Of a stretch of 64,000 bases of DNA, positions 34,315-41,258 are shown piece by piece. Numbering within the stretch: position 1 is the stretch's first letter; every line of letters starts with the position of its first letter. Origin of the DNA: Maritimibacter dapengensis (GTDB lineage Bacteria; Pseudomonadota; Alphaproteobacteria; Rhodobacterales; Rhodobacteraceae); the NCBI RefSeq assembly GCF_019218265.1, contig NZ_JAHUZE010000006.1, forward strand, positions 22,023-86,022. Direction: 5' to 3'. Under the pieces are notes generated by a model, which was not told where the DNA came from, searched no databases, and saw only the letters and a program-made list of their open reading frames with translations. A program made the position numbers and the translations under genes.

Positions 34315-35425
34315 GGCTTGGAACTGGACGCTGCCCGATTGGCCGGATTTCCGGTATGACGCCTCCGCTCTGGAGGCGTTCGAGCAGAAGTTTCTGCTGT
34401 CGTCCGGAGAAATCCTCGGCGCGGTCCATCATGTCAGCCAGCCGGAGCGCGAGCAACTCCGCATCGAACTTCTCAGCGAGGAAGCGATGCAGACGAGCGC
34501 CATCGAGGGTGAAATCCTCGATCGGCTCAGTGTCCAGTCTTCGCTGCGCCGCCATCTGGGCCTCGATCCGGACAGCTACCCTGCCAAACCGCGCGAACAG
34601 GGCGTCGCGGAAATGATGGTCGACGTCTATTCCAATTTTGCAGAGCCGCTGACCCATGAGACACTGTACCGCTGGCATCGGATGCTCCTGTCCCATGATC
34701 GTCGGTTGGAAACCATCGGGGCCTACCGACAACACGCCGAGGCGATGCAAATCGTTTCCGGCCGCCTTGACCGGCCCACGATACATTTCGAAGCGCCACC
34801 CTCGGAGCGGGTCATGCCTGAGATGGAGCGATACGCGGATTGGTTCAACAAGACCGGGCCGGGGGGAGCAGAGCCGCGTCCAGCGCTGACGCGCGCAGGG
34901 CTAAGCCACCTCTATTTCGAGAGCATCCACCCATTCGAAGACGGCAACGGTCGCTTGGGTCGCGCCCTCGCTGAAAAGTCGCTGGCGCAGAATATTGGCC
35001 AGCCGACCCTCATCTCGCTCGCCTTCACCATCGAGAAGCAGCGCAAGGCATACTACGACCAGCTCGAGCAGCATCAAAAAACGCTCGATGTGACCGATTG
35101 GCTCGTCTGGTTCGCGGAAGTTGTCTTGAAAGCCCAACAGGCAACACTCGACCGCGTCGGCTTCTTCATCAGCAAGGCACACTTCTACGATCGTCACAGA
35201 GACCACTTGAACGAACGCCAGGCCAAGGCCATCGCTCGAATGTTGCGGGAAGGCCCTGGCGGTTTCAAAGGCGGCCTCAGCGCCGACAACTACCTCAAGA
35301 TCACCGGAACCTCACGCGCGACCGCGACCCGCGATCTGCAGGATCTGGTCGAGAAGGGCGTGCTCGCTCGAACCGGCGAGCGGAGGCACACGCGATACTG
35401 GTTGAAACTCGACTGGAGTGAATAA
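34313..35425 (+). CDS. Fic-family AMP-transferase with C-terminal winged helix
   Basis: A 370-residue Fic protein. The catalytic motif is complete, HPFEDGNGRLGR near residue 205. An N-terminal inhibitory helix motif TSAIEGE (about residue 63) marks an intramolecularly inhibited class in which Glu blocks ATP. The C-terminal 60 residues form a winged helix (LKITGTSRATATRDLQDLV). Fic enzymes usually AMPylate proteins. The inverted repeat across its start codon suggests autoregulation by its own DNA-binding domain. Confidence 0.88.
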   Translation: MAWNWTLPDWPDFRYDASALEAFEQKFLLSSGEILGAVHHVSQPEREQLRIELLSEEAMQTSAIEGEILDRLSVQSSLRRHLGLDPDSYPAKPREQGVAEMMVDVYSNFAEPLTHETLYRWHRMLLSHDRRLETIGAYRQHAEAMQIVSGRLDRPTIHFEAPPSERVMPEMERYADWFNKTGPGGAEPRPALTRAGLSHLYFESIHPFEDGNGRLGRALAEKSLAQNIGQPTLISLAFTIEKQRKAYYDQLEQHQKTLDVTDWLVWFAEVVLKAQQATLDRVGFFISKAHFYDRHRDHLNERQAKAIARMLREGPGGFKGGLSADNYLKITGTSRATATRDLQDLVEKGVLARTGERRHTRYWLKLDWSE

Positions 35426-35712
35426 AAATTGCATGAAAACAACAATTTATAAAAAATCCGATAATTCGTTTTATGTAACATGATCCGAGACTTGAGCTCA
35501 CGTTGGTGGGCTTGGGAACGCGCCCGACACACTTCGTCACAACCGGTGCTTGTCCGGCAAATCTTTGTTTCCGCAGCACAGATACCCCTTTGGTCGCATC
35601 CCGGAAAAGCTCGGGATGACTCAAGCCTGCCCGAAAGCGAATGGTGAACGGTCTTGCGTGTTGGATTTTCCGACATTATATTGAGAGCAAGACAGCTATT
35701 CGGACATGGACG
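35426..35712. other. AT-rich intergenic region before the accessory locus
   Basis: A 287-base gap that begins with about 60 AT-rich bases, unlike the high-GC surroundings, and ends with the promoter of the next operon. No gene seen. The composition shift fits the border of an acquired module. Confidence 0.5.
35654..35682 (+). promoter_or_regulatory. Promoter of the protease/nucleotide locus
   Basis: TTGCGT (35654-35659), 17 bp, TATATT (35677-35682), about 30 bases upstream of the ACP-like gene. This is the only good sigma70-like promoter I see for the five-gene rightward operon. Confidence 0.55.
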
Positions 35713-36039
35713 ATGCAAACGACCACCAAGACGAAACTGTTTCCGAAGCAGGATCTGGAACTTGTGCTTCGTGACGAGCTCATGCTCGCGGCGGAGGCTG
35801 AAGCCAGCATGCACGGAATTGTACTGCCCGCATCATCTGGGGTGGCGGCAGTCGCACCTGTACCGATGGACTCTCTTGTAGTTGTGGAGCTCTTGTGCGC
35901 GGTCGAACCAGTGCTTGGCTTTACGCCGGCGGATGCGACGGTACGCACTGGCGGATACAACTCGGTGCAAGACGCATTGGATCACTTAATCCCGCGGCTG
36001 GAACAGCAGTGGAAGAAGAAGAATGGAGTGTCAGCATGA
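35713..36039 (+). CDS. Acyl-carrier-protein-like small protein
   Basis: A 108-residue protein. Its second half follows the ACP pattern: Ser54 in PMDSLVVVELL, the position of the phosphopantetheine serine in DSL, then AVEPVLGFTP and a closing SVQDALDHLI helix. The N-terminal 45 residues form a helix and a Gly/Ala linker. No ketosynthase, acyltransferase or phosphopantetheinyl transferase gene is nearby. It could carry an acyl or aminoacyl group, or be a degenerate ACP fold used for protein contact. ATGA overlap with the XRE gene places it first in the operon. Confidence 0.6.
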   Translation: MQTTTKTKLFPKQDLELVLRDELMLAAEAEASMHGIVLPASSGVAAVAPVPMDSLVVVELLCAVEPVLGFTPADATVRTGGYNSVQDALDHLIPRLEQQWKKKNGVSA

Positions 36040-36410
36040 GCGTCGCCAAGCGGACCAACGACGATGACCAAGAAGCTCGGCAGGAGATGGGGGAGCGGCT
36101 GCGGGAAGCACGTCGGTATTTGGGTCTAAAGCAAGACGAGGTGGCCCAGTACCTCAAGATCCAGAGAACCGCGTTGTCTGAGATCGAGGCCGGAAACCGC
36201 CGTGTCGAGGCTCTGGAGTTGAACCGGCTCGCGAAGCTGTATCGACAACCGGTCGCGTATTTCATCGGAGAAGACGATGCAGCTGGGAGTTTGCCGGTAG
36301 ATGTAGCGCACCTTGCACGACAAGCCGCAGACTTGTCTCGGCAAGACCGGGATGAACTGGGGCGTTTTGCCGAGTACTTGCGCGCCCGCTCGGCCGCAAC
36401 CCAGGAGTAA
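36036..36410 (+). CDS. XRE-family transcriptional regulator
   Basis: A 124-residue protein with a lambda-repressor-like HTH (GERLREARRYLGLKQDEVAQYL, split here as the first two helices, then IQRTALSEIEAGNRRVEALEL). The C-terminal helix ends ELGRFAEYLRARS. It lies directly before an ImmA/IrrE-type peptidase, the usual pairing in which the peptidase cleaves or is controlled by the repressor, as for ImmR/ImmA of ICEBs1. It probably represses this operon. Confidence 0.88.
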   Translation: MSVAKRTNDDDQEARQEMGERLREARRYLGLKQDEVAQYLKIQRTALSEIEAGNRRVEALELNRLAKLYRQPVAYFIGEDDAAGSLPVDVAHLARQAADLSRQDRDELGRFAEYLRARSAATQE

Positions 36411-36413
36411 CCA

Positions 36414-37427
36414 GTGGTTTCCAATTATTCGCAGGCAGTTCGCGGCGGAGCAGCTGCGGCGGCTCGAGCACACCGGCAACTAGGCGTGCGAGAGCGGCTC
36501 GAAACGTCAGGCGGTTCAGTCAACGTTTTTGCTCTCATCAATGAACTTGACGTGCCTTTGCTTCTACGGCCGCTCGACGGCTTGCTCGGAGCATATCTTA
36601 ATGCCCCATCGCAAGGGATTCTCGTCACCACTCAGCGCCCCATGAGTATCCAGCGATTTACGGCCGCACATGAGCTCGGCCATTGTCTTCTGAACCATCA
36701 ACCCAGCCTCGACGATGAAGCAAGTATCCTCCGTCGAATGCCAGCCAATTTCGATCCGGGCCACGACTATCAAGAAGTCGAAGCCGACGCTTTCGCAGTC
36801 GCGTTTCTCATGCCCAAATGGCTGCTCGCCCTACATATGAGGCGGCAGAATTGGACTGTGCCAGACTTTCGACGCGCAAACGTGATTTACCAGTTCAGTC
36901 TGCGACTTGGGGTGAGCTACGAGGCGTTGTGCTGGACCCTGGTTCGGTACAGGATGATTGCTGCGAAGCAGGCCCGCGAGCTTTTGCAGACAAAGCCAAA
37001 GGCGTTGAAAGAAGCTCTTCTCGCTGATCATCGACCGACAAACTACCGGGGCGATGTATGGCTACTTACCGAACGCGACGCTGGAGCGCTGATTGATGGC
37101 AGTCGTAACGATCTATTCGTCCTCAAGCTCACCGAGCACAGCAATGGAGGATACCTCTGGAACATCCATCAATTGCAGGAGAGCGGATTCGCCATCGTCA
37201 GTAATGAAATCGAAGCGATCGAAACAGACAGCGTCGGTGATCCTGGAATACGACGCGTCACGGCAATGCCTCCGGAAGAGTACCGAGGTCGCCTTGTGTT
37301 GGATGAAACACGACCCTGGGATCACAATCAGAGCTTCTCCAGGCTCGAGTTGGACCTCGACCTGACAGGCCCCGAAGGTGAAGGCCTTTCACGTGCTGAG
37401 CGGCGAAGACTCCTGGAGGCCGCTTGA
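36414..37427 (+). CDS. ImmA/IrrE-type Zn peptidase fused to a chagasin-like domain
   Basis: A 337-residue cytosolic protein. Residues 35-200 are the ImmA/IrrE (DUF955) metallopeptidase, with zinc motif His86-Glu87-LG-His90 in AAHELGHCLLNH and the third ligand near Glu123 in EVEADAFAVAFLMP. Residues 213-325 look like a chagasin (MEROPS I42) inhibitor: NGGYLW at 244-249 corresponds to the NPTTGYxW loop, and RPW at 300-302 to the conserved RPW loop, followed by a last strand LELDLDL. A papain-like protease, the target class of chagasins, is encoded by the next gene with no gap. GTG start at 36414. Confidence 0.8.
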   Translation: MVSNYSQAVRGGAAAAARAHRQLGVRERLETSGGSVNVFALINELDVPLLLRPLDGLLGAYLNAPSQGILVTTQRPMSIQRFTAAHELGHCLLNHQPSLDDEASILRRMPANFDPGHDYQEVEADAFAVAFLMPKWLLALHMRRQNWTVPDFRRANVIYQFSLRLGVSYEALCWTLVRYRMIAAKQARELLQTKPKALKEALLADHRPTNYRGDVWLLTERDAGALIDGSRNDLFVLKLTEHSNGGYLWNIHQLQESGFAIVSNEIEAIETDSVGDPGIRRVTAMPPEEYRGRLVLDETRPWDHNQSFSRLELDLDLTGPEGEGLSRAERRRLLEAA

Positions 37428-38111
37428 GTGACAGTGACGATAAACGTAGATTTACGGGCGAAATTTGGGCCCGTCAGGGATCAAGGTGCGCGACCAACTT
37501 GCTTGGCGTTTGCCGCCAGCGACGCCCATGCTGCATTGCGCAGCGGCTGGGATCCTCTGTCATGTGAGTTCGCCTTCTACCATGCACAAAAACGTACCGG
37601 GCGCTCTCCAAATAAGGGAGCATTTCTCGACGACATGTTGGCCACGCTTCGCGATACCGGCCAGCCATCGGAAAGTGGATGGCCGTACATTCCGCGTTTG
37701 CCCACGGACCTGAGGCACTATCGCCCCCCATCATCCGTCGGAAATTTATTTGGGCGCGAAGGTCAGAAGACCAGTCACGAAGTCGATCGAGTTTGCGATG
37801 CGTTGGATTCCAACGTCCCTGCTATTGTTCTTTCAGTCCTGACGAGAAGTTTCTTTAATCCGCCATCGGATGGAGTCATCGACCAAATCACCGGTGACGA
37901 AGTTTTTCCGGCGCCGCGACATGCCGTTATCGCGGTCGGCTATGGGGAAGCGGCGACGAAACGTGTCATTCTGGTGCGAAATAGCTGGGGACCAACCTGG
38001 GGTTTGAGCGGGTATGCTTGGCTAACTGAGGATTTTCTGGCTAAGCACATGTATGCCTTGGCAATATTGACGGACGAATGCGATGTATCTGGCCATTCCG
38101 CCACAGCCTGA
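37428..38111 (+). CDS. Cytosolic papain-like (C1) cysteine peptidase
   Basis: A 227-residue C1A-type peptidase. The catalytic set is complete: Gln19 (VRDQG), Cys25 (ARPTCLAFAA), His165 (PAPRHAVIAVGYG) and Asn185 (VRNSWGPTWGLSGY). It has no signal peptide and no pro-region, so it should be made active in the cytosol, which demands an inhibitor; the chagasin-like domain encoded just upstream is the obvious one. GTG start directly after the ImmA stop. The last 29 bases overlap the next gene. Confidence 0.85.
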   Translation: MTVTINVDLRAKFGPVRDQGARPTCLAFAASDAHAALRSGWDPLSCEFAFYHAQKRTGRSPNKGAFLDDMLATLRDTGQPSESGWPYIPRLPTDLRHYRPPSSVGNLFGREGQKTSHEVDRVCDALDSNVPAIVLSVLTRSFFNPPSDGVIDQITGDEVFPAPRHAVIAVGYGEAATKRVILVRNSWGPTWGLSGYAWLTEDFLAKHMYALAILTDECDVSGHSATA

Positions 38112-38859
38112 TTGTGTAAGAACTTGGCGCGAAGCGGTTCGTTGCGTTGATAGCGAACCCGGACATGAGGCGCACAACGTCCTGATGTCTGTTGATGACC
38201 CGACCGCCGGGGCAAAGTTGAGCGACGCGAGCGTCAATGCCGTCAATGAATTCTTGCTACGGCACGACAAATCCGTCCGAACCATCGCCAACACGATCTT
38301 TCCGGAGGCGCTCTATCACAGATATGGTGCCCCGGAATTCTTCGACCGGTTTCGCGACCGAGTTCTGCCCACGGTACGACGCAACGAAAGATGGTCAGGA
38401 TATTATTTCGAGCGGATGGTCGATTGGCCCGGCGCCCCGGCCGGCAATCCGCTTTGGGACATCGTCACGCGTATGAGGGACCCGACGGTCAGGGCAAGGA
38501 ACAAATTTGAGCTTGCTCTTTTCGATCCTGCTCGCGACGTTGATCGTTCCCCTTACGGCGGACAGTGCCTCAGTTTTCTCAGCTTCAAACTGTTGGCAGG
38601 GAATCCGGAGACGCTCACACTCACAGCGATCTACCGGAACCACTACTATGTCGAAAAGCTACTCGGAAACTTGGTTGGTCTCGGCCAGTTGATGTCGTTT
38701 GTGGCCACTGAAGCTGGACTCAATATTGGATCCCTGACCGTGCTGTCGTCACATGCGACAATCGACCTGCCACGATCAACCTGCGGGGGGACTACAACAC
38801 GCGGCGAGCTTCGAGCACTCCTTGACGAGATTGATGGTCTGTCTGCAGCCAATACCTAG
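38083..38859 (+). CDS. Thymidylate-synthase-like protein
   Basis: A 258-residue protein that I align to the thymidylate synthase/dCMP hydroxymethylase fold. Key points: Cys162 in YGGQCLSFLSFKL at the place of the catalytic PPCH Cys, TAIYRNHYYVEKLLGNLVGL at the place of the LYQRS..D.FLG.PFN segment (phosphate-binding Arg and nucleotide Asn present), and LTVLSSHATID at the place of the DTHLY..H strand. The N-terminal half (NTIFPEALYHRYG) resembles TS-like proteins of phage and islands. It may bind or modify dUMP/dCMP or a base analogue. It is not the housekeeping ThyA. Confidence 0.6.
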   Translation: MYLAIPPQPDCVRTWREAVRCVDSEPGHEAHNVLMSVDDPTAGAKLSDASVNAVNEFLLRHDKSVRTIANTIFPEALYHRYGAPEFFDRFRDRVLPTVRRNERWSGYYFERMVDWPGAPAGNPLWDIVTRMRDPTVRARNKFELALFDPARDVDRSPYGGQCLSFLSFKLLAGNPETLTLTAIYRNHYYVEKLLGNLVGLGQLMSFVATEAGLNIGSLTVLSSHATIDLPRSTCGGTTTRGELRALLDEIDGLSAANT

Positions 38860-39542
38860 GCAAACTCAGCGAAAGGCAGAGTTGCCGTTTCCGGTCGCCG
38901 GGCCGAACTTGAGAGATTGTATATTGCCTCGATGCCCGCAATGAACTCACTTTGCCCACCATAGCTCGGATGGCGGACCTGAGATACAGGAAGGTCCAAA
39001 TCTGCTAGAGCTTCTCCCGCATCACGCCCAATTGCCACCAAGCGTTTAGGTTGAAGCATCTCCAGGAGTGCCAACAGAAATGGCCAGGTTGCCGAACGCT
39101 CCGTTTTGCGATGTGAGCGGTTGGTCATGGGATCATCTGGCGCGTGCGGGTGAAGCGGAAACACATTCCACAGCATTACTGGCCTGCCAATTGACGAAAG
39201 AAGCTGCCAAGTGACTGTCGCCGTACGTTCGGCAAGTGCCGGTCCTGTCGTGGCCCGAGCAAGGGTTATTCCGCCAAACAGATGTTCAGCTTCCGTGAGA
39301 TGTGCTTCGTCGGTCAAGGGTACTCCGGTACGCCGTCCCCCCCGGTACCCGAGGTCCCTTGCTATCCAGATAGTATCAGCACGGGCATTCATCGCGGCCT
39401 CAAGACACCGCTTCAGGTTCTCGCGTCGAGCGCGCGCAGCATCGACGGTATCGTGAATGGGGCAGATGTCGCTGTACGGATTAAAGGTGTTCACCAAATC
39501 GACAGCGGCAAGTTCTTCGACAAAGGATTCTGGAGTGTTCAT
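38856..39542 (-). CDS. Uracil-DNA-glycosylase-like protein
   Basis: A 228-residue protein with the UDG-superfamily motifs: motif A as ARDLGYRGGRRTGVPL (residues 61-76), a central NVFPLHPH segment, NRSHRKTE, and motif C as VRHPSYGG near residue 190. It would excise uracil or a modified base from DNA, or bind such a nucleotide. It is the second gene of a leftward pair (ATGA overlap with the MazG-like gene) and ends on the same CTAG that ends the thymidylate-synthase-like gene. Confidence 0.65.
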   Translation of the reverse strand: MNTPESFVEELAAVDLVNTFNPYSDICPIHDTVDAARARRENLKRCLEAAMNARADTIWIARDLGYRGGRRTGVPLTDEAHLTEAEHLFGGITLARATTGPALAERTATVTWQLLSSIGRPVMLWNVFPLHPHAPDDPMTNRSHRKTERSATWPFLLALLEMLQPKRLVAIGRDAGEALADLDLPVSQVRHPSYGGQSEFIAGIEAIYNLSSSARRPETATLPFAEFA

Positions 39543-40714
39543 GTCAACGGCTCGATGTTTAGCCGCCGCTCTACGGCATCTAGGATAACAGTTCCACGGC
39601 GATGTTCACGCAGATAGCGAAATGCTGCGTATCCTTGCAGGATGGCCTCTTCCCACAGCCAGGTCGGACAGTTCTCGGCTTCGTAGCCGCGAACGAACTG
39701 TCTGACCTGCTTCAATAGGTCGAACGGCAACTCCCCGGCCTTCAGGTCTTGAAAGAAATCCATCTCCATGGCCTGTCCGAAAATCCAAGTCGCGATCCCC
39801 TCCTCGATCAATGCGGCGCGGGCTCCGTCTTGGGCCTCGTCGATCTTTGGCCGACTCTTACGTTTCAACCGAAAAAGGGAACGAGTGACCGGCGACCAGC
39901 CAAGGATAGCGACGTAGGCATAGTGGAAGACATCATGGAACCTGTAGTCATCCGGTGTCATAGCGTTGTCCGTCAGTCGATCCCCGATGTTGAGGCCGTT
40001 GCAGGTCTGGAAGACGTAGCGTTTGCCACCAACCTCCCGTTCAAAGATGTTGATCTTGAGGTTTCTGGGCAGCTGTTCTTCCGGGGGCAAGTCCGCATCG
40101 AAGAAGGGCGGGTATGCCTTCTGGATGGGCCATCGGTCTGTCGTCTTTGCTCGATTCTTGATGGCCGCAGCTTCCAGCGTGACGCCCGCTTCATTGGCCG
40201 CGCGAATGAGTATCTCGAGAATCGCGACAAGTCGGGGTCCGAGACGTCGGCGATCCCTTTGGAGCTCGTTGTTCGATTGATCGGCCATAAGAAGCCCGGT
40301 TGCAGCCGCCAACTCGATGAGGGTTGCTTCGAAAGCCGGTGACGGTGACTGTCCAGCGGTCAGTACAGACGGCTGCAAAGCCTCAAAGGTGAGCGGCACA
40401 CCCGTTGCGGATAGCCAGTTCTCGCTATCGCTGGCAAGGTTGGTGACAATATCGGCGAACGAGATTTCTGCCCTAGCAGCAACTAGGTTGAAGTACCAAA
40501 GTACGTCGCCGAGTTCCTCTGTAACCGCAGCCGCGTAGGCGCGATAGGAGATCGGGTCTCTCTGCTTCTTCTTCACTTCAGAGAGAAGGCTCCCGACCTC
40601 TCCAAAGAGGCCAAGCAAAGGGAAGTTGAGGGAATCCGCGTCCCGCCGAAGGTCCGTCGCAAGCGCATCCGTTGAGAAATCCTGCACTGACAATGGAATG
40701 AAATCGTCTGACAT
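39539..40714 (-). CDS. MazG-like NTP pyrophosphohydrolase with C-terminal domain
   Basis: A 391-residue protein. Residues 30-85 have the all-alpha NTP-pyrophosphatase (MazG) pattern: LFGEVGSLLSEVKKK and TEELGDVLWYF. The canonical ExxE is Glu39-x-x-Ser42, so one metal ligand is changed. The C-terminal half is a separate domain with HDVFHYAYVAILGW and ALIEEGIATWIFGQ, whose His/His/Glu arrangement could hold a metal; I do not recognise it. GGAGGAC precedes ATG 40714. Cleavage of a non-canonical nucleotide to its monophosphate fits its glycosylase- and TS-like neighbours. Confidence 0.65.
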   Translation of the reverse strand: MSDDFIPLSVQDFSTDALATDLRRDADSLNFPLLGLFGEVGSLLSEVKKKQRDPISYRAYAAAVTEELGDVLWYFNLVAARAEISFADIVTNLASDSENWLSATGVPLTFEALQPSVLTAGQSPSPAFEATLIELAAATGLLMADQSNNELQRDRRRLGPRLVAILEILIRAANEAGVTLEAAAIKNRAKTTDRWPIQKAYPPFFDADLPPEEQLPRNLKINIFEREVGGKRYVFQTCNGLNIGDRLTDNAMTPDDYRFHDVFHYAYVAILGWSPVTRSLFRLKRKSRPKIDEAQDGARAALIEEGIATWIFGQAMEMDFFQDLKAGELPFDLLKQVRQFVRGYEAENCPTWLWEEAILQGYAAFRYLREHRRGTVILDAVERRLNIEPLT

Positions 40715-40901
40715 CTGTCCTCCAAATGTGTGATAGCTGAATGCGAGGCCACCTATATCTTGTATCTGTCATTTGAATCGATTGCGGTCAGTCCGGCAAG
40801 AAAAAGTGACTTTGCGCTCATCAGACTTTCCAAGAACCGAAGCTAGGCACACCGAACGGCAAGGGCTGGAGCAATCAGAAAGCGGTCTTCTGGTGCGCGG
40901 A

Positions 40902-41174
40902 TCACATCTTGGATGACGACTGGTACCCACGCCGCTTCTTCGTCGCCGACAGCTTCATCAGGGCGTTGACCGCCCTGCCCTCGTCATCGTGTTGCTCGAT
41001 CAGCATCTGGCCACGGTAACCGATCCGACCCCATTCCCGCACCAGGCTCACGCCGCCAAACAGGTCTTGCTGAACGCTCATTCGATAGAAACGCCGCATG
41101 TTGAGAGACGGGTCGATCCGCTTGAGATCGACTGTCGTCGGGAACACCTCCATTTGCTGCGCTTCATCGAACAT
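40902..41174 (-). CDS. WGR-domain protein
   Basis: A 90-residue protein made almost wholly of a WGR domain (FYRMSVQQDLFGGVSLVREWGRIG, then a Gly/Gln turn and an acidic stretch). WGR domains bind nucleic acid or its 5' ends in PARPs and in MolR-type proteins. Here it stands alone. The start is ATG 41174 with GAGGTG upstream; a longer reading from 41228 is possible. Confidence 0.8.
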   Translation of the reverse strand: MFDEAQQMEVFPTTVDLKRIDPSLNMRRFYRMSVQQDLFGGVSLVREWGRIGYRGQMLIEQHDDEGRAVNALMKLSATKKRRGYQSSSKM

Positions 41175-41258
41175 TTTGCGGTCACCTCGTCTGCGACAAC
41201 GATACCAAGTGTATGTCCGTGTTTCCACAATGTTCTCTCCCGAACAGGGAAAGGGGGC

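Follow-up and report, generated by a model that had tools for sequence, protein, structure and literature searches.

A co-inherited seven-gene cassette, likely with a role in defence, that combines a chagasin-fused ImmA peptidase, a papain-like protease and uracil-nucleotide-type enzymes

Introduction

What could be the purpose of a gene cassette in which a papain-like protease and its putative inhibitor are encoded next to proteins of nucleotide- and base-directed enzyme families? This question is raised by seven open reading frames (ORFs) at positions 35713-40714 of a stretch of 64,000 nucleotides from Maritimibacter dapengensis (contig NZ_JAHUZE010000006.1), which in its full length is called the window here. 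An original prediction had described them as one co-inherited system on a conjugative element, with a regulated protease half, a nucleotide half and a role in defence. We report here that the gene set is conserved across genomes and occupies a cargo slot in which most of the sister plasmids examined carry defence genes. The cassette probably serves in defence and is a variant within the nucleotide-centred conflict systems, with partners that differ from those known.

Results

All seven ORFs were found in two convergent operons, and the gene junctions described before were re-read in the sequence and are correct. Operon 1, on the plus strand, starts with an ACP-like carrier protein (35713..36039), followed via an ATGA junction at 36036 by an XRE-family repressor (36036..36410), an ImmA/IrrE metallopeptidase fused to a chagasin (I42) domain (36414..37427), a papain-like C1 protease (37428..38111) and a protein with thymidylate synthase (TS) fold (38083..38859), the last two ORFs overlapping by 29 bp (38083-38111). 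Operon 2, on the minus strand, consists of a dimeric-dUTPase-like MazG protein with a MazG_C domain (39539..40714) and a UDG-superfamily protein (38856..39542), joined by ATGA at 39539-39542; the convergent TS-like and UDG ORFs have a common CTAG at 38856-38859. Pfam backs the family calls for the helix-turn-helix (HTH) protein (PF13560 and others), Peptidase_M78 (PF06114, 42.8 bits) with Inhibitor_I42 (PF09394, 29.5 bits), Peptidase_C1 (PF00112, 48.3 bits), UDG (PF03167) and MazG_C (PF18722, 275.4 against a cut-off of 29.7) with MazG (PF03819, 23.2 bits). The ACP-like and TS-like window proteins matched no Pfam family (at E 0.1 for the latter), PF00550 and thymidylate synthase PF00303 included; these calls are supported by a relative of the ACP-like protein at locus L012, which matches PF00550 (32.3 against a cut-off of 20.8), and by NCBIfam and the predicted fold for the TS-like protein. 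In PADLOC, capH (E 2.7e-12) was among the matches of the HTH protein and capP (E 3.6e-16) among those of ImmA; the other five gene products had no match.

Co-inheritance was assessed with a TS-like profile on genome contigs. Of 208 relatives the best 80 were kept, which together with one viral contig gave 81 loci with 59 distinct TS ORFs. The order ACP-XRE-ImmA-C1-TS on one strand is kept in 79 of the 81 loci, so the linkage of these five genes is beyond chance, and the claim of a single co-inherited system is borne out. UDG and MazG are present as well in 75 loci, 73 times in the convergent layout of the window and twice with both genes on the plus strand. The remaining six are L033 (neither), L060 (UDG only), L063 (a TS piece only, counted as a miss), L094 (HMUDK fused to MazG), L095 (HMUDK only) and L098 (no C1; HMUDK and MazG). 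By record title, the hosts are mostly Alphaproteobacteria, together with metagenome-assembled genomes of two Betaproteobacteria, one Woeseiaceae and two Planctomycetes; a plasmid search added an archaeal cassette from Haloarcula. Among 77 distinct TS-like sequences of at least 200 residues from all sources, leaving aside short pieces (L017) and repeats (L063, identical to L060), XRE and ImmA accompany all 77, C1 accompanies 68 and is missing from nine, and the ACP gene was found in 75; at L152 and L153 the gene in the ACP position seems to be a divergent relative with the serine retained. Two candidates were set aside: a lone TS-like piece in Burkholderia arboris (L017) and a Deinococcus C1 match (L009), at neither of which cassette partners were found.

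Furthermore, single genes were used as anchors in 289 Alphaproteobacteria. The TS-like profile matched nine places in eight genomes, two of them weak or partial (G228, 57 residues; G271, E 7.3e-6). All six C1 matches with E <1e-30 lie inside cassettes, that of G097 being rearranged, and the other 23 (E 4.7e-22 or weaker) sit in other genomes. MazG_C was found at 14 places in 12 genomes. Six of these adjoin TS-like or C1 genes, a seventh lies at the end of a contig and faces an assembly-cut cassette, and the other seven are elsewhere. Ten strong UDG places (E <1e-40) occur in nine genomes, with one UDG divided between two contigs. MazG_C adjoins nine of these places, and at three (G261 and both pieces of G185) the matched stretch is interrupted by one in-frame stop. 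In four of these genomes the UDG stands with TS or C1 genes, in five it stands without them. These counts indicate that operon 1 is accompanied by the nucleotide pair but that such pairs also associate with other genes. The original prediction had named independence of the two operons as what would speak against it, and here the outcome is on the favourable side but mixed: the six strong C1 matches and the TS-like cassettes seen, each with a UDG or HMUDK partner, bear it out, whereas the five genomes with UDG-MazG_C pairs that lack operon 1 and the partnerless piece in G228 do not.

The location of the cassette is the best evidence for a role in defence. A VirB4-type ATPase, a coupling protein, a relaxase and a VirC1/ParA-like protein, with Fic and AbiEi neighbours, confirm the conjugative setting. 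Sister plasmids are about 86-96% identical to the window up to 35,409-35,413 (35,481 in L170) and again from 40,917-40,924. Because their alignments stop and resume at these borders, the seven genes lie inside a cargo slot (35413..40917). Two close relatives that carry the cassette (L019, L021) keep the same flanks, and in two others the shared left flank ends at 35,467 (L018) and 35,458 (L020). Ten sister records were examined, eight among the matches listed (15 of 42) and two from another search. For L178 the border alignments covered the left side of the slot and for L169 the right side. In nine of the ten, the slot holds restriction, BREX, Qat, DarG or similar genes: QatA/QatB and RES-Xre in L169 (right side alone in view), a type IIG enzyme in one, a type III methylase with a helicase in two, a restriction endonuclease with an ATPase in one, DarG with DUF4433, HigA and ThiF/multiubiquitin in one, type I restriction-modification with Abi in two near-alike plasmids and BREX-3 in one. 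The tenth, L174, contains insertion sequence elements and transglutaminases. PADLOC concurs for eight of ten slot proteins submitted and gave no match for the L172 ATPase and the L173 ThiF protein. The defence role is thus supported through what the sister plasmids carry; the slot may take maintenance genes too.

Two genes bordering the slot on its right are kept in the sister plasmids, a WGR-family gene (40902-41228; named from plasmid records) and a SLOG-family gene (YspA-like, PF10686; 41259-42230). At a different place in one sister plasmid (L176:2373-6631), an XRE-ImmA pair adjoins a phospholipase of a cyclic-oligonucleotide-based anti-phage signalling system (CBASS).

The two halves proposed for the cassette are also supported. 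Residue conservation was counted over distinct sequences without short pieces and including some from outside full cassettes. In the protease half, the HTH gene adjoins an M78 peptidase with HExxH and a distal Glu, and ImmA H86, E87, H90 and E121 are found in 82/82 sequences. The C1 protein of the window has Q19, C25, H165 and N185; the Cys is present in 75 of 76 sequences (one gap), His and Asn in all 76. Both the Cys-His-Asn triad and the chagasin loops are thus in place in this papain C1-I42 pairing, for which inhibition is predicted. The ImmA profile matches amoebiasin-2 with E 1.2e-10 and chagasins more weakly (E 0.02-0.1). A loose GYxW loop pattern occurs in 71 of 72 distinct ImmA proteins with a C1 partner (not in L042) and in 0/9 without one, and the second chagasin loop, of RPW type, in 68 of the 72. 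D53 and S54 of the carrier protein, the predicted phosphopantetheine site, are conserved in 72/72 sequences. A phosphopantetheinyl transferase gene is located near 10 of 103 core loci, a set which includes repeats of near-identical loci and flanks of differing length. AcpS-type genes are near eight, four of which built the search profile; an Sfp-type gene is near L008, the source of its own query, and the match at L145 is weak (E 1.4e-6). Given the conserved Ser and the transferase genes nearby, the ACP-like protein is likely a real phosphopantetheine carrier; hosts without a nearby transferase gene would need to charge it with their own.

Upstream of operon 1, a promoter-like site was read by eye on the plus strand (35654..35682), with a -35 element TTGCGT (35654-35659), a 17-bp spacer and a -10 element TATATT (35677-35682); many of the printed ACP upstream contexts have a comparable layout. 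Between the two elements lies the palindrome TGTTGGA-TTT-TCCGACA (35659..35675), which is predicted from sequence to be bound by XRE as its operator. Of 77 distinct 150-bp regions upstream of ACP, 61 contain the form TGTYN9RACA. These regions are not the same set as the 77 TS-like sequences, and related ones among them are not independent; the controls gave a mean of 0.54 and a maximum of 4 in 200 mononucleotide shuffles and 23/1540 random windows of the same loci. The palindrome is present at three Streptomyces loci, at two of them with weak symmetry. A wider XRE regulon was discarded: apart from a single exact operator site, the host genome has one mismatched site and no second exact site of the stricter operator form.

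In the nucleotide half, the TS-like protein reaches E 3.8e-7 with NCBIfam thy_syn_methano at 29.8, far below the cut-off of 174.55, and its model has the fold and the catalytic Cys of the TS superfamily. This Cys (C162) is found in 81/81 sequences and Asn196 in 80 of 81 (one gap). In thymidylate synthase an Asp holds folate; the aligned column is Tyr or Phe in 67 of 77 TS-like sequences and Asp in one. The UDG protein passes PF03167 narrowly (25.0 against a cut-off of 24.3) and stays below the family-4 UDG model TIGR00758 (24.7 against 125.3), and its relative in L007 has no Pfam match; N126, H131, N141 and R142 are present in 67/67 sequences. H260 and H264 of MazG_C are conserved in 82/82 and E39 of MazG in 76 of 82 (six gaps). 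The viral Foldseek matches listed for MazG are mostly MazG-like or dUTPase proteins, plus unnamed ones. An origin from phages was considered and rejected: a tblastn search of 50,697 phage records with the whole MazG protein found nothing at 1e-5, and viral contigs yielded one protease-less locus (L098). Distant phage relatives do exist, since the C-terminal half of MazG matches the phage family PHROG 229 (E 6e-50).

The neighbours of the pairs without operon 1 were identified as well. Nmad2, two ThsB_TIR and SLOG cluster 3 are near the pair of G260 (L136), TIR_2 and SLOG cluster 2 near that of G077 (L139), which the pair of G227 (L141) resembles by eye, and ThsB_TIR lies about 2 kb from that of G097 (L137). 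At L142, which has HMUDK and MazG_C, ThsB_TIR is present; beside the pair of G274 (L140, at a contig end) no Nmad2, TIR or SLOG was found. The units L136:3971-7995, L139:3016-6354 and L142:2806-6338, in which UDG or HMUDK and MazG_C stand beside Nmad2(-like), ThsB-TIR or TIR and SLOG genes, are further nucleotide-centred conflict systems. Nmad2 also occurs inside a full cassette (L096).

The cassette varies in defined ways. UDG and HMUDK_hel (PF18723), the latter named after the 5-hydroxymethyldeoxyuridine (5-hmdU) DNA kinase domain, are mutually exclusive (87 and 15 of the 103 core loci, none with both); L033, at a contig end, has neither. The tree places three changes between them, one forced, with several long branches of unsure placement. 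The branch without C1 comprises three Streptomyces, two cyanobacteria, two rhizobial plasmids (Rhizobiaceae), one alphaproteobacterium and one viral contig, and has HMUDK in 9/9. A TS profile of the branch matched 25 of 398 genomes, four strongly (G554, G362 and 21 weak ones were left out), and from a further protein search with 4204 proteins at E <=0.001 among 7999 candidates, five of the best 120 were used. The viral contig scan found one locus, the protease-less L098 (L098:5142-9948), on an IMG/VR contig of 52.9 kb for which phage or plasmid is undecided. A dCTP deaminase gene is present at nine of 103 core loci. In Gemmataceae, HMUDK and MazG_C form one polypeptide (L094:8823-10799), with an AcpS gene and a dCTP deaminase at the same locus. 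In L002 (L002:10600-10794) and relatives, operon 2 starts with the gene of a short protein, 64 residues long in L002 and by eye resembling ribbon-helix-helix proteins, whose profile matches at 44 of 103 core loci and not in the window. In two rhizobial plasmids the cassette is preceded by caspase-family genes (L002:2700-4622, L006:635-1828). At L020:8777-11371, about 1.4 kb of extra sequence splits the UDG gene; the other six genes are full profile matches.

Discussion

How might these parts act together? Because a conserved gene set sits in a slot mostly filled with defence genes, because active-site residues are conserved in ImmA, C1, the TS-like and the carrier protein, because the promoter region holds a palindrome, and because a chagasin-family inhibitor domain is fused to the metallopeptidase adjoining the protease, we propose tentatively, at somewhat less than an even chance, a defence cassette in which an altered nucleotide, made or read by uracil-nucleotide enzymes, would release a papain-like protease from its inhibitor. 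XRE would hold the promoter of operon 1. On a trigger tied to a uracil-type nucleotide, ImmA would cleave XRE or itself, lifting repression and freeing C1 from the chagasin domain, and the protease would then cut a cell or phage target and stop the infection. The TS-like enzyme may use a dUMP-type substrate that comes from the MazG/dUTPase-like protein and, at loci that have one, from a dCTP deaminase; once loaded by a phosphopantetheinyl transferase, the carrier protein would bring or receive a group, and UDG or HMUDK_hel would handle the resulting base. A bolder version, which we regard as quite unlikely, proposes a new immune messenger: the TS-fold enzyme would work independently of folate and join a group carried on ACP-phosphopantetheine to C5 of a uracil nucleotide, the product would open the ImmA-chagasin lock, and the TIR and SLOG relatives would read sister molecules.

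Several observations weigh against the proposed defence cassette. The slot of L174 has no annotated defence gene, the palindrome is lacking in 16 of the 77 upstream regions, and UDG-MazG_C pairs occur without the protease. The C1-less loci form a single clade (support 100/97), so that the match between chagasin loops and C1 counts as one evolutionary event, many independent events being ruled out by the tree. This branch must act without C1, and its pathway must end differently, perhaps through ImmA. Moreover, the structures nearest to the TS-like model, phage dCMP hydroxylase AfhB and, tied with it, MilA, are pyrimidine-nucleotide hydroxylases and thus modifying, not signalling, enzymes.

This last point favours an alternative in which the TS-like protein, the carrier, MazG and UDG or HMUDK make a modified thymine for the DNA of the element, as a coat against restriction, with the protease and ImmA merely regulating; the derivation of the HMUDK_hel name from a 5-hmdU DNA kinase domain fits as well. 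However, UDG-MazG_C pairs also adjoin TIR and SLOG domains, families associated with making or reading nucleotides, a protease with triad and inhibitor loops would be left without a clear job, and Pfam recognised no DNA-acting transferase or polymerase among the cassette genes. We consider DNA hypermodification unlikely, if worth keeping in mind. The fold of the MazG model, closest to dimeric dUTPase, and the dCTP deaminase genes would suit another explanation, that the derepressed MazG/dUTPase-like, deaminase and TS-like enzymes drain or corrupt the pyrimidine dNTPs and so block phage DNA, the protease being the switch and UDG punishing uracil in DNA. But most loci, the window included, have no deaminase, and the carrier protein is not needed for depletion, which makes this an improbable account. 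That the protease is a plasmid-stabilising toxin with the ImmA-chagasin protein as antitoxin is very doubtful, for the conjugative location, the adjoining inhibitor gene and the operator at the promoter agree with an addiction module but the conserved carrier and nucleotide genes and the protease-less branch are left unexplained.

If the proposed defence cassette is real, it represents a bacterial immune pathway in which uracil-nucleotide chemistry and a carrier protein are linked to a protease that a regulator-fused inhibitor keeps in check. It is directly testable, given the mutable residues ACP S54, ImmA E87, C1 C25 and TS C162 and the defined operator.

With respect to known systems, a literature search gave no paper on this gene combination among the matches listed. 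The main text on DefensePredictor (PMC13092281) names the same domains as the cassette: TS, 5hmdU kinase and NMAD are part of validated systems there, whereas MazG, MazG-C and UDG belong to predicted systems. ImmA and papain are absent from that main text, and overlap is possible beyond it. DndF is predicted to sense phage-modified nucleotides (PMC10853773), so the trigger idea is not new in itself. The ImmA protein resembles the amoebiasin and chagasin inhibitors in its profile matches, but its inhibitor domain is fused to a metallopeptidase in the same operon as the protease. CapH and CapP are the XRE-ImmA regulators of some CBASS, and PADLOC likens the window HTH and ImmA proteins to them; unlike CapP, the window ImmA carries a chagasin domain, and none of the seven gene products matches a CD-NTase or other nucleotidyltransferase (Pfam, PADLOC). 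The TS-like protein shares fold and catalytic Cys with the CMP hydroxymethylase MilA, phage AfhB and ThyA and differs from them in its missing Pfam match and its mostly Tyr/Phe folate column. Burroughs et al. reportedly described, in 2015, nucleotide-centred conflict systems with MazG_C, Nmad2, SLOG and TIR. Unlike in Thoeris or TIR-SLOG systems, Pfam finds no TIR or SLOG among the seven gene products, and neither lies between the slot borders; instead, the window pair is partnered by ACP-XRE-ImmA-chagasin-C1-TS. The relationship to these systems is nevertheless apparent from relatives of the window UDG-MazG_C pair that adjoin Nmad2, SLOG or TIR genes and from the Nmad2 gene that has joined the cassette at L096.

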